Shown in pieces: positions 39,301-51,055 of a stretch of 64,000 bases of DNA. This DNA comes from Luteimonas fraxinea. Lineage in GTDB: Bacteria > Pseudomonadota > Gammaproteobacteria > Xanthomonadales > Xanthomonadaceae. The stretch lies in assembly GCF_021233355.1 (NCBI RefSeq), contig NZ_CP089507.1:2605001-2669000 (forward strand), written 5' to 3'. Within the stretch, counting starts at the first letter, position 1. Each line of letters begins with the position of its first letter. Both the position numbers and the translations under genes were made by a program. Below the pieces are notes generated by a model that ran no database searches, was not told the origin of the DNA, and worked only from the letters and a program-made list of their open reading frames with translations.

Positions 39301-39856
39301 GCGTTGGCAGACCTGGCAGGCGAGCACGCGACAACTTCTTGATGTGGTGCTCAAGGGCGACTGGTATGCCGAATGGCGTGCCGGTAACAGGCGAATCCTG
39401 CCTGCGTTCTCGACGCGTTTCGCCACACAGGTCGGCATTCTCCAAGGGGGATGCATGGGAACGACGGGGGAGGCCGGTCTGCTGCTCCACGGGCCCTACA
39501 TCCCGCTTTCTGCAGGGCATCACCGTCTTTCGATCCGCGGGCGCCTGCGTGCGACCAATGCCTCGACCGCGTGGGCAGAGATCGTGCACACGCGCGGCGA
39601 AATCCAGGTCGTGCGATTCGCGCTGCCCGGCACCTCTGCAAGCGGAATCATCTTGGACCTTCCGTTCGAGCTCGATGACGACGTGCAGGACCTGGAAGTT
39701 CGCATCTGGGTAGGAGAGGGCGACATCGCATCGATCGCAAGTATTGGCATCATCCCGTTCGAAAACGCACGTGCGCCCACGCTCGTACATGCGCAGCGCG
39801 CCCGCGCGGTCGTCGGCGCCGGCGCCTGCGTTTCATCCGTAACGGGGTTCCGCTGA
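36371..39856 (+). CDS. Bifunctional glycosyltransferase: two GT4 domains plus C-terminal GPY/DLEVR module
   Basis: A 1161-residue protein. Domain 1 (about 1-415) is a complete GT4 transferase: MRIAVDLQACQFNGRYRGIG, then HEGFGLPILEAMACG (317-331) with the E-x7-E glutamates. A divergent linker (about 415-615) follows. Domain 2 (about 615-1000) is a second GT4: [34 protein letters not shown] and [17 protein letters not shown] (908-924). Residues about 1029-1130 form the shared module with GPY at 1041-1043 and DLEVR at 1107-1111. Such multi-domain GTs build repeat units, here probably rhamnan-like. It overlaps its neighbours by one base on each side. Confidence 0.9.
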   Translation: MRIAVDLQACQFNGRYRGIGRYSLNLVEHMLEVAGDHEFIVCLNDTADGDGIYPLVDRLARRMPRENIRVWSSMAGVGAVDESAAAAARRRHACLLRDTYLASLRPDVVHAASLFEGFGDDTAVRIASEEGLAPRTAVTLYDLIPLLRPAEYLQHPLVDRWYRERVADLRNAGMLLAISEASRREAIEHLGLPEDNIAMISSGVDPVFAPWRGTPSEIRAFRRRFGLCEQFVLYTGGFDSRKNLSRLVRAWAAARKLPDSQLVFAGMGEPNAIAELRAVAASEGLADDALRFLGYVSDEDLVRLYSITSLFAFPSIHEGFGLPILEAMACGAPVIAADATSLPEVVGLRDALFDPMSIASLTEKIEQVLDGPGFAERLRLHAVKQSRHFSWERSARQAVTALEELGSRQRQPVWRVSRVAHSEAASRERLDGLRQAAPGATVAASRQLAQGDIAVTVQCGDNDALSSTTLLLDASLRESGAVSIADMYATHGYAFARLHAQGRALHPGAPMAWRPPVDVDGFGFDPATAMRIPLNRQTGIPAEWRLLPEDSDSHFAANAIELAAGLGQSGHRALLRRLVERAGAIPAEQSLAADDLAPFAVAAARNHPDSASRRQLLLDVSELVHQDQATGIQRVVRRVLTALLDWRAPDIRVEPVFLAADGRYRYAAAFTSRFLGLDAPVRDDDLIDYVRGDVFLGLDLAQQCVVRSSDWFQRIRAAGVEVHFVIYDLLPWIRSEFFHPAARPNFEAWLHALSILADGVVCISRAVADEFISHLEALTLSARKSPLKIGYFHLGADLDADVTRRSTTPAELETAALIPKDVPVVLMVSTLEPRKGYQQTLDAFDLLWQDGDDVTLVIVGKLGWMFEHFAQRLRTHPQWMRQLFWFEAASDGMLQTLYREATVLLAASEGEGFGLPLIEAAQSGIPLLCRELPVFREVAGPHAAYFQARSGWELAQAMRDWLSSWRAGAGVPSSAGLRWQTWQASTRQLLDVVLKGDWYAEWRAGNRRILPAFSTRFATQVGILQGGCMGTTGEAGLLLHGPYIPLSAGHHRLSIRGRLRATNASTAWAEIVHTRGEIQVVRFALPGTSASGIILDLPFELDDDVQDLEVRIWVGEGDIASIASIGIIPFENARAPTLVHAQRARAVVGAGACVSSVTGFR

Positions 39857-42411
39857 TGCGTGTGCTGATCAGTGTGCGTTGCGCGCATGTGACTTCCGGC
39901 GCGCAACAGGCCGACGAGGTCGCAACGTTCGTGGCCTCGATTGTCGAAGCGGCGGATGCCACCGATGACGTTCATCTGGTCTTCGACGCCGCGTTGGGCG
40001 AGGCAATCGAAGTGATCCGGAATGCCGCGGGCGAACTTCCGCCGCAGCGCACGCGCGTCTGGGGCGGCACAGGCGATTCCTCCGAGCCCATCCTGGGTGT
40101 CCAGGCTGCACGCGACCTCCGACTGCGGCGCTGTATCGCCGAGCTGGAGCCCGAGGCAATGATCGACATCTGCCTCGGCGAATCGGTCGGACTCACGTAT
40201 CCGCAGGGCGTGTTTCCGAAACCGTCGTGCGCGTCCGGTGCGCGGTTTGACCATGCGACGGTCACAGTGCAGGCCGTGTCGGAGGACAGACTCGAAGCGA
40301 TCCGGGATCGTCTCGGCATTGAGATGGTGTGTATCCCGGACAGCGGTCCGAGCACAGGTCGGGCGCTTTCCGACCCGCCTGCGTGCGAGGGCGCACGGGA
40401 CGATATCCGCACGCGCGGTGACAGTGGGCCTGACGTCGCCGAATGCCATCTGCTGGCGGCAGGTCCCGGTCTGGATGGAGCGGTTTCACGGCTGCTGCGA
40501 TCGGGCGGGCACGTGCAACTTCGAAGCGGCGCGCTTCAGGCGCTCTCGCGTGAGCTGTCGCTGGATACGACGCTCCAGCTCGCCCACGCGTGCGGTGGAT
40601 ACGCCTCAGTGCGCAGCACCCTGATGGGTGAAGCACTGACTATTGCGGACGTCGAGGCGTGGCTTGCGAGCGTGTCGCGGGGCGCGCGGGCCGTCACCGC
40701 AAACGATGCATGGTATGAGCACCGGAGAATGCTCGACGCCGCACTCTTCCATTGCCTGGGCGACGCTGTCGAAGCACCTGGCATTGCAGGCGCTCTGCAC
40801 CACGACATTCTGGGTGCTGTCGCCGGACCCAGGCGATTGCTCGTGGACATCTCCGCTCTGGTGAAGTTCGATGCCAAAAGCGGCATCCAACGCGTGGTGC
40901 GGAACATCCTCTCGCATCTCGAGTCGGCGCTGCCGGAGCGTTATCAGATCGCGCCGATCGCTTTTATGGACGACGGCCGCTGTCTGCATGCGTCCAGGTT
41001 CTACGCCCGGTTCGTCGGCTTGCCTTACGACGTTCCAGATGACGGCGCCTTCGTGCCGCGGCCCGGCGACATCTTTCTCGGTCTCGATTTGTCCGCGCAC
41101 ATCGTGCCTGTACATCAGTCCAGGTTCGAGTGGATGCGGCGCCTTGGGATCCCGATCCATTTCGTCGTGTATGACCTGTTACCGATACGCCGACCGGAAT
41201 GCTTCGATCCACGCGTCGTGAACCTGTTCCAGGCCTGGTATGCCTCGATCGCAGTTCTGGCGGATGGCGTGCTGTGCATCTCCAGAGCGGTCGCTGACGA
41301 GTTCGCTGATTGGCTGGACGAACACAAGCCCAAGCGTATCGGAGCGCTCGGTATCGACTACTTCCACCTCGGGGCAGACATCGTGGATTCGGCGCATCGC
41401 GAGGCGGATTCACCTCATCCGGTGGATGGGCGCCGTTATGTCTTGATGGTGTCCACCCTTGAGCCACGAAAGGGATATGCCCAGGCGTTGGCTGCATTCG
41501 AGCTGCTGTGGGCGAAAGGTACTGATCTTTCGCTTGTCATCGTCGGCAAGCAGGGATGGATGATGGAGGCCTTGGTCGAACGTCTGCGAGGGCACCCGGA
41601 ACTCGGGCGGCGCCTGCACTGGTTCGAAGGCATCGATGACGCGCTACTGGCGAGCCTGTATCAACACGCAGACGGGCTGCTGTCAGCTTCGGAGGGTGAA
41701 GGGTTCGGACTGCCCTTGATCGAGGCGGCCCAGTACGGTGTGCCGGTTCTGTGCCGCGACCTGCCTGTGTTCCGGGAGATCGCAGGCGAAGCCGCGACCT
41801 ACTTCGACGGTTACGAACCCGAGGCATTGGCCGATGCCATCGCGCAGTGGAACGAGACCTTGGGCGCATGTCCGTCCGGTCAGGTCCCCTGGAAAACCTG
41901 GCGCGAGGCGACCTCGGAATTCGTCGCCGCCCTTACATCAGATCAGCCCTATCGACGCTGGATCGGCAACGAAGATCGCTATCTGTTCAGTGGCTATAAT
42001 CCGAGGCTTCAAACGCTTGTAGGCGAGCGCTCCCACGGCGACATCGTCACCAGCGGTCGCGAAGGCGTACTCGTATACGGGCCTTACATGAGCTTAGGTG
42101 CAGGCTCGTATCGTCTGCGCATCCGGGGTGAATTGTCCGCCCCGCACATCGACGCGACGCTCGTGGAAGTGGTTGCAATGCAGGCATCGTTGCAGGTCGC
42201 AGCGTGGCACGTGATCGCATCTGAGGACGGAATGATTGTCGACGCCGAGTTTCGCCTGCCGGACGACGTCGACGACCTCGAGGTCAGATTGACGGTATCG
42301 AGCGAGCACGCCGTGCGTTTTTCCAGAATCGAGATCGTCCGGCACCAGGCCCTTCCGACCCAACCTCCAGTCACCGAAAGTCCAAGAAAATCTGAGGAAC
42401 GCGTGCAATGA
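39856..42411 (+). CDS. GT4 glycosyltransferase with degenerate N-terminal half and C-terminal GPY/DLEVR module
   Basis: An 851-residue paralogue of the second half of the preceding protein. Residues about 1-310 start like a GT4 N-domain ([20 protein letters not shown]) but lack a recognisable catalytic half. Residues about 330-725 are a full GT4: [30 protein letters not shown] [31 protein letters not shown] and [15 protein letters not shown] (612-626). The C-terminal module covers about 728-830 with GPY at 742-744 and DLEVR at 807-811. The donor is unknown; GDP-D-rhamnose is likely since gmd and rmd follow directly. Confidence 0.87.
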
Positions 42412-50520: not shown

Positions 50521-50548
50521 CAGGGTTCAGAGGGCGAGAAGCGGGCAA

Positions 50549-51055
50549 TCATCGCGTTGCGGTGGCCTGGAGAAGTTCGTAGGACCGGACCTGCAGTTCG
50601 GCGCCCGCAGGCACCCAGGCGCGGATTTCCAAATCCGAGACATTCTGGTCGACAGTGACCGGGAAACTTGTCAGCGTCCCGTCCGTTCCGGTCGTCTCCG
50701 AAACCTCCATCGAACCATGTGTCAGCGTGCCTTTTGAAGAGACCACGTCAAACTTCGCTGCGCTGCCTGGAGTCAGCTGGGTGATATCGCCATGCACGGT
50801 CAGGACATACGATCCTGCAGAGAGCGACGCGTAGGGGCCGAACATCAGATACCCCTCGCCGCCGTTGCTGACGAGGCGGTCACCGTCCAGTGCGCCGGCC
50901 TTTGGTTCGGACAGAACGTCCTTGCTCTCTGCGGTCATTCTGATCTCGTGCGCCGGCGCTTCAACTGCCGTCGTCCCTTGGGTGTCTGCTGGTCCACAAC
51001 CGGCGACGAGCGCACAGGACAGCAGTAGCGCTGTCAGCTTGATGCGATTGGGCAT
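50549..51055 (-). CDS. Lipoprotein consisting of a stand-alone GPY/DLEIR module
   Basis: A 168-residue lipoprotein. Signal peptide MPNRIKLTALLLSCALVAGC with lipobox VAGC and lipid-attached Cys20. After a short linker the mature part (about 56-162) matches the C-terminal module of the three glycosyltransferases in this locus: GEGYLMFGPYASLSAGSYVL (GPY at 73-75), a THGS stretch also found in the membrane GT, and DLEIR at 141-145. It is 28 bp before the GT2 gene and 61 bp after xanB, in their operon. No known family was recognised; a glycan-binding role is inferred. Confidence 0.85.
   Translation of the reverse strand: MPNRIKLTALLLSCALVAGCGPADTQGTTAVEAPAHEIRMTAESKDVLSEPKAGALDGDRLVSNGGEGYLMFGPYASLSAGSYVLTVHGDITQLTPGSAAKFDVVSSKGTLTHGSMEVSETTGTDGTLTSFPVTVDQNVSDLEIRAWVPAGAELQVRSYELLQATATR

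Follow-up and report, generated by a model that had tools for sequence, protein, structure and literature searches.

An unnamed accessory domain recurs in four proteins of a polysaccharide locus in Luteimonas fraxinea

Four copies of one module in a polysaccharide locus

The window analysed here, a 64,000-nucleotide stretch of the Luteimonas fraxinea genome (contig NZ_CP089507.1, positions 2,605,001 to 2,669,000), carries a polysaccharide locus in which two GT4 proteins, a polytopic membrane protein and a small lipoprotein share a module of about 100 residues (Table 1). A sequence-only reading had pointed to this module, and its description holds up: the four open reading frames (ORFs) are present with the lengths it gave (1161, 851, 709 and 168 residues), and the module borders set by our profile (Table 1) lie near the ranges it had proposed. 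In this order of proteins, the GPY motif starts at residues 1041, 742, 620 and 73 and the DLE(V/I)R motif at residues 1107, 807, 685 and 141. A four-row alignment keeps the pattern G-x-x-G-x-L-x-x-GPY, the next L and G, and V-x-DLE-x-R invariant, while THGS, as had been claimed, is common to the membrane protein and the lipoprotein.

The four copies are homologous. Segment-versus-segment BLASTP gives E-values from 2.5e-5 to 6.7e-18 (search space set at 100,000), and leave-one-out profiles, each built without one segment, recover that segment at 53-76 bits (E 1.3e-15 to 1.8e-22, the set holding 1001 sequences). Shuffled controls (1000 per segment) do not exceed 8.5 bits against these profiles and the best ORF besides the four copies, among 585 window frames of at least 60 residues, reaches 6.9 bits, which rules out a chance motif. 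Across the genome, a single contig of 4,008,183 bases, profile matches at E <= 1 fall at four places, all inside the polysaccharide locus. A pattern scan of genome contigs returned 97 matches, none of which was confirmed as a module, and full-protein searches retrieved only the window's own proteins and near relatives (two, two and five proteins, the five being among the best 8000 candidates).

The module is an add-on to its hosts. At E <= 1e-40 the GT4 core of the 851-residue protein is found at 14 places in 8/150 genomes, and the module accompanies it at four of them, two in the window and two in a genome of the same genus that has the same GT4 pair (G023). The ten places without the module correspond to nine ORFs, because L033 and L041 form a single one, and all nine stop 3-42 residues past the core. 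One of the nine is a paralogue elsewhere in the window's own genome (L044/L052, G000:C1:981712), possibly in another polysaccharide cluster. Searching 150 genomes with the body of the 709-residue protein at E <= 1e-5 brings up, apart from the protein itself, one relative (G117, 31% identity). In that relative (L030/L051, minus strand) a different C-terminal domain of ~140 residues replaces the module, as if C-terminal domains had been swapped; we rejected it as a module copy, the profile comparison giving only 5.7%. Within the enzymes, module identity is below core identity, i.e. the module evolves faster, and in the lipoprotein the module is 77% identical to a metagenomic relative (P0002), its own N-terminal part 65%.

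As for the hosts, hydropathy assigns no clear membrane segment to the GT4 proteins (none in one, one marginal residue in the other). Between its two GT4 stretches the 1161-residue protein has a linker (~residues 410-610; window ~37600-38200) to which none of the listed Pfam families is separately assigned, and the first ~325 residues of the 851-residue protein (window 39856-40830) lie outside all listed Pfam matches. No Pfam family matches the 709-residue protein and NCBIfam models likewise explain nothing of it; its hydropathy profile opens with a hydrophobic segment and a loop of 43 residues, six of them acidic, and comprises ~11-12 hydrophobic segments in all once close ones are joined manually; the C-terminal ~260 residues we place outside because of the positive-inside rule. 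Judged from hydropathy and charges, module copy 3 is probably periplasmic, and its host is a putative glycosyltransferase; the structure model of this protein (pLDDT 38.5) was not used further. The residue at position +2 of the lipoprotein is Gly, not Asp, which under the Lol rule would presumably direct it to the outer membrane. Gene order and spacing suggest that it shares a transcript with the GT2, the acetyltransferase, the flippase candidate, the methyltransferase and the aminotransferase. The flippase candidate barely exceeds the Pfam cut-offs for EamA and Small Multidrug Resistance and scores 56.7 bits against the ArnF model, under the NCBIfam cut-off of 99. With the GT2, this protein and the 709-residue protein, the locus has candidates for the polyprenyl-phosphate sugar synthase, the flippase and the GT-C glycosyltransferase of a three-component system for periplasmic side-chain glycosylation. 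Taken from its gene content (gmd, Rmd-like reductase, GT4s, Wzm and Wzt), the locus probably makes an ABC-transporter-dependent O-polysaccharide of the D-rhamnan type.

Table 1. Genes and module copies of the locus, with module hosts in other loci (MAG, metagenome-assembled genome; SAM, S-adenosylmethionine; Und-P, undecaprenyl phosphate)
Feature	Window position or locus	Strand	Description or basis
Wzm-type ABC-2 membrane subunit	33089..33883	+	family profile matches
Wzt ATPase with Wzt_C carbohydrate-binding domain	33880..35106	+	Pfam
FkbM-type methyltransferase	35103..36371	+	Pfam
1161-residue protein	36371..39856	+	two GT4 stretches (Pfam Glycos_transf_1), then module
Module copy 1	39443..39757	+	C-terminal part (~1025-1129) of 1161-residue double GT4 protein
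851-residue protein	39856..42411	+	Pfam-unmatched N-terminal part, one GT4 domain, then module
Module copy 2	42028..42345	+	C-terminal part (~725-830) of 851-residue GT4 protein
GDP-mannose 4,6-dehydratase (gmd)	42408..43442	+	exceeds NCBIfam cut-off
SDR-type reductase, probably Rmd (GDP-D-rhamnose)	43420..44355	+	Pfam; activity inferred from gmd neighbourhood
709-residue membrane protein	44359..46488	+	GT-C-like by topology (hydropathy), then module
Module copy 3	46177..46479	+	C-terminal part (~607-707) of 709-residue polytopic membrane protein
WecE-type dTDP-4-amino-4,6-dideoxyhexose aminotransferase	46587..47849	-	exceeds NCBIfam cut-off
SAM methyltransferase	47731..48459	-	Pfam
Small EamA/ArnF-like membrane protein, candidate Und-P-sugar flippase	48359..48724	-	Pfam, NCBIfam
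GNAT acetyltransferase	48791..49552	-	Pfam
GT2, PgfS/ArnC type, candidate Und-P-sugar synthase	49546..50520	-	PgfS and ArnC matches below NCBIfam cut-offs
168-residue lipoprotein	50549..51055	-	lipobox VAGC at residues 17-20 (by eye), linker, then module
Module copy 4	50567..50884	-	residues 58-163 of 168-residue lipoprotein, most of the mature protein
ManC/XanB mannose-1-phosphate guanylyltransferase	51117..52523	-	Pfam, NCBIfam
Membrane-protein hosts	L046, L060/L089, L061/L090, L062/L091, L081 (two in tandem)		polytopic by eye
SAM methyltransferase host	L054
GT4-TPR protein host	L087		internal copy
Glycerophosphotransferase-like host	L092		N-terminal GPY pattern, profile E only 0.025
Short stand-alone module proteins	L022, L050, L057, L058
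194-residue protein with signal-like stretch	L083		Methylococcaceae MAG

Distribution and genomic company of the family

At E <= 0.001, matches occur in 10/150 genomes of relatives (profile A1), 4/369 of the class (A2) and 9/398 of the phylum (A1), each including the window's own genome, and in 6/150 relatives of G718 and 5/113 relatives of G429 (both A7, centre genome included). Profiles A7 and A8 were partly built from sequences found via A1 and A2, and A10 and A11 are therefore not fully independent. From the match counts in these five sets the family is therefore rare, yet it is spread across several bacterial groups, and the matches in other genomes rule out a feature private to this locus. 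In eight of the ten A1-matching relative genomes the module sits at the C-termini of proteins that we take to be phosphoglycerol transferase I-like. The corresponding NCBIfam model, NF009027, matches 3/21 rows of A8 (best E 6.5e-31), one being the lipoprotein (E 0.0046) and the other two presumably L006 and L008, which six further phosphoglycerol transferase I-like proteins resemble; compared profile to profile, the module and the domain of these proteins match at 97.4% (E 1.6e-11).

Over 21 diverse module rows the key residues are kept, and within the hosts (Table 1) the module takes C-terminal, internal and probably N-terminal positions; the membrane proteins of L046, L081, L083 and L089-L091 were called polytopic by eye. 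The module tree has little resolution (6/18 inner branches starred). The 194-residue protein of L083 sits between a hydrophobic membrane protein and a GT4 protein that is homologous to the 1161-residue protein (42 and 40% identity) and has no module; its best match among 12 proteins compared is the module of the 709-residue protein (35%, E 5e-12, search space 1e7). A few individual cases may be added. A WavE protein of Novosphingobium sediminicola (L082:8516-10435) carries two module copies in tandem. Two tandem membrane proteins, 55% identical and both with modules, lie at L081:8159-12680 on a contig titled Dehalococcoidia MAG, which, provided that the contig was binned correctly, lies beyond the Proteobacteria; binning errors are possible. 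At L091:10310-12291 a second module-bearing membrane-protein gene is split over two frames and looks broken or misassembled. Finally, G810 encodes a 187-residue stand-alone module protein (L022/L047) with no glycan marker in its 20-kb region and a long tree branch, and its role may therefore differ.

The module keeps company with glycan loci. With 21 marker proteins and a threshold of E <= 1e-8, one or more glycan-locus ORFs turn up in 14/18 module loci as opposed to 0/13 control regions; L047, L084, L088 and L092 gave no glycan marker. The count covers 18 loci and leaves aside the phosphoglycerol transferase I-like ones (L006-L013, L016, L017, L024-L026). Some of the markers came from four of the counted loci (L046, L048, L049, L082), and excluding these, 10/14 have markers; at least nine were supplied by the window, of which L045 is a near relative. 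The marker match and the module protein may also be one and the same (both GT4s in L045, WavE in L082), and the loci are not independent, six belonging to genus g425 (L049, L084-L088) and four to family f41 (L046, L089-L091). The controls were 13 arbitrary regions from 13 genomes, with none for G930, G766, G168 and the contigs L081-L083. The counter-case that the sequence-only reading had set itself, a known broad family with no tie to polysaccharide loci, went mostly the opposite way: the family does extend past the locus, but 14/18 of the loci in this count resemble polysaccharide loci.

Besides the window with its four copies, more than one copy is found in L045 (two), L081 (two) and L082 (two in one protein), and weaker second copies in L087 (independent E-value 7e-4), L091 (two frames, independent E-value 4e-4) and L092 (E 0.025, GPY seen by eye). 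A single copy was seen in 12 of the 19 scanned loci, the window included.

Predicted fold and proposed role

The suggestion that the module forms a small beta-sandwich is borne out at the level of predicted fold: AlphaFold models the lipoprotein copy as a jelly roll whose closest structural matches are mostly carbohydrate-binding modules (CBMs), many of them polysaccharide-binding, with CBM6, CBM35, CBM16, CBM4 and CBM86 among the named neighbours. That no named domain had been recognised agrees with our Pfam searches and with profile searches of Protein Data Bank (PDB) sequences. Against Pfam, 21 module sequences gave four weak single-row matches only (best ChiW_Ig_like, E 0.046) and no CBM family at E <= 1, PF03422 CBM_6 included; hhalign of the module against five CBM_6 rows returned 3.6%, and the PDB sequence searches (best E 0.066 and 0.37) yielded no credible relative. 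Wzt_C (PF14524) was rejected as the module's identity, there being no profile match and a probability of only 0.5% in an hhalign comparison with the C-terminus of the locus' own Wzt, a single Wzt sequence; that Wzt domains are not among the matches listed by VIA or Foldseek excludes nothing. Among NCBIfam models only that of phosphoglycerol transferase I offers a useful link, through its C-terminal part. No description of the domain was found in open-licence literature, judged by titles and abstract starts, most subscription papers being outside this scope. We conclude that the module is a genuine accessory domain of glycan assembly, with no name in the protein-family databases searched.

The predicted fold, the genomic company and precedents on O-antigen transporters and GT-C enzymes point, albeit indirectly, to glycan binding. 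To our minds it is rather probable that the module, a mobile CBM-like jelly roll, binds a glycan chain on behalf of enzymes by which surface polysaccharides are built or decorated. The pathway may run as follows. In the cytoplasm the modules of the GT4 proteins would hold the growing chain and favour processive extension, while the WecE, GNAT and methyltransferase set would make a sugar that the GT2 loads onto undecaprenyl phosphate and that the ArnF-like protein flips across the membrane. The 709-residue protein, by analogy, would transfer this sugar to the exported chain and so decorate it, its periplasmic module binding and holding the acceptor, and the lipoprotein, a linker with the module alone, might capture the exported chain or present it to this enzyme in the periplasm. 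Glycan binding, the pathway, the lipoprotein's part in it and the sameness of the bound glycan across copies are what we infer. A bolder version, which we hold only tentatively, sees one CBM-like family as a common reading head, with the same glycan held by cytoplasmic polymerases, periplasmic decorator and lipoprotein and with similar multi-copy loci in several groups. That a single glycan might be followed through both compartments is the interesting part of this hypothesis.

Among other explanations, a protein-protein or self-association domain, which would assemble the polysaccharide enzymes and dock the lipoprotein on the membrane enzyme with the glycan left unbound, fares best, and we regard it as unlikely. 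It could account for loci with several copies (the window, L045, L081 and, more weakly, L087, L091 and L092), and a jelly roll may bind protein, as in the Eph ligand-binding domains among the structural matches. Yet copies in the cytoplasm and in the periplasm cannot be in direct contact, most of the nearest structures are CBMs, and single-copy loci prevail in our scan. We find it quite improbable that domain shuffling left the copies behind as passive remnants, or that they merely help folding and bind nothing, the lipoprotein being a fragment shed by an enzyme. Such remnants would fit GT4 relatives that manage without the module and module identity below that of the enzyme cores, but not the conservation of key residues in 21 diverse rows, the varied placement within hosts, a lipoprotein module better conserved towards P0002 (77%) than the N-terminal part (65%), or the stand-alone copy that recurs in L083, its N-terminus being signal-like. 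Just as improbable is a module that recognises a lipid-linked carrier (an undecaprenyl-phosphate sugar or the head of a glycan on undecaprenyl diphosphate) or lipid A-core instead of the polymer, as might be argued from host enzymes expected to act on membrane-linked intermediates and from phosphoglycerol transferase I, an enzyme with a lipid donor whose relatives carry a related domain, given that many of the nearest fold neighbours bind polysaccharides and that the GT4 proteins have no clear membrane segment.

Significance and comparison with known systems

The finding exceeds ordinary annotation, but it varies an idea that is already known, namely that biosynthetic machines carry CBMs. In the literature cited here, CBMs on biosynthetic enzymes are otherwise described as single cases (Wzt, ORF12, EmbC), and here one unnamed family is common to GT4 polymerases and membrane proteins, to a methyltransferase and a WavE protein, and to phosphoglycerol transferase I-like and stand-alone proteins. 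It would offer a sequence handle for acceptor-binding parts of unannotated membrane glycosyltransferases, and whether one module type tracks one glycan over two compartments becomes a testable question, for which a small lipoprotein that is nearly module only is a convenient reagent.

The locus seems to follow a decoration logic like that of Xanthomonas campestris and Citrobacter youngae. In X. campestris, mutation of wxcK, a gene of the amino-sugar pathway, or of wxcN, which encodes a small membrane protein, removes the N-acetylfucosamine (FucNAc) branches or leaves traces of them, and there is more rhamnose, polar effects not being excluded by the authors (PMC4878081). In C. youngae O1, side chains are attached in the periplasm by a GT-C enzyme that uses an Und-P donor; the CBM at its C-terminus binds undecorated O-antigen, although the enzyme functions without it (PMC11127046). 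Our 709-residue protein resembles this enzyme, ORF12 (GT136), by description, in having a beta-rich domain at the C-terminus of a membrane protein that would likewise decorate an exported O-antigen; the ORF12 system has a single, immunoglobulin-like CBM, a ribose pathway and a MATE flippase (PMC11127046). In our locus cytoplasmic GT4s and a lipoprotein carry the module too, there is an ArnF-like protein, and the candidate donor synthase is a GT2, whereas the GT136 pentofuranose subtype is characterised by a phosphoribose-type donor synthase with a phosphatase domain. Mycobacterial EmbC is alike by description too, its jelly-roll CBM being C-terminal on a GT-C enzyme and acceptor-binding (PMC3044687). 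In several ABC-transporter-dependent O-antigen systems the Wzt CBM checks the chain end (PMC11231755, PMC9445017), and Wzt_C resembles the module in being a small beta-sandwich (jelly roll), one that binds O-antigen in the cytoplasm (PMC9445017); in this locus it is a domain apart from the module, on the locus' own Wzt. With CBM6, 35, 16, 4 and 86 the module shares the predicted jelly-roll fold but no sequence match, and its hosts are biosynthetic. As to phosphoglycerol transferase I of Xanthomonadaceae (NF009027), the lipoprotein scores 14.6 bits as a whole protein where the cut-off is 572, and the other three hosts are not among the matches listed. The profile comparison relates only the C-terminal domain, over ~81 columns with DDL(E/Q)IR kept, whereas the catalytic part is another one and the GPY strand is lost or changed there.

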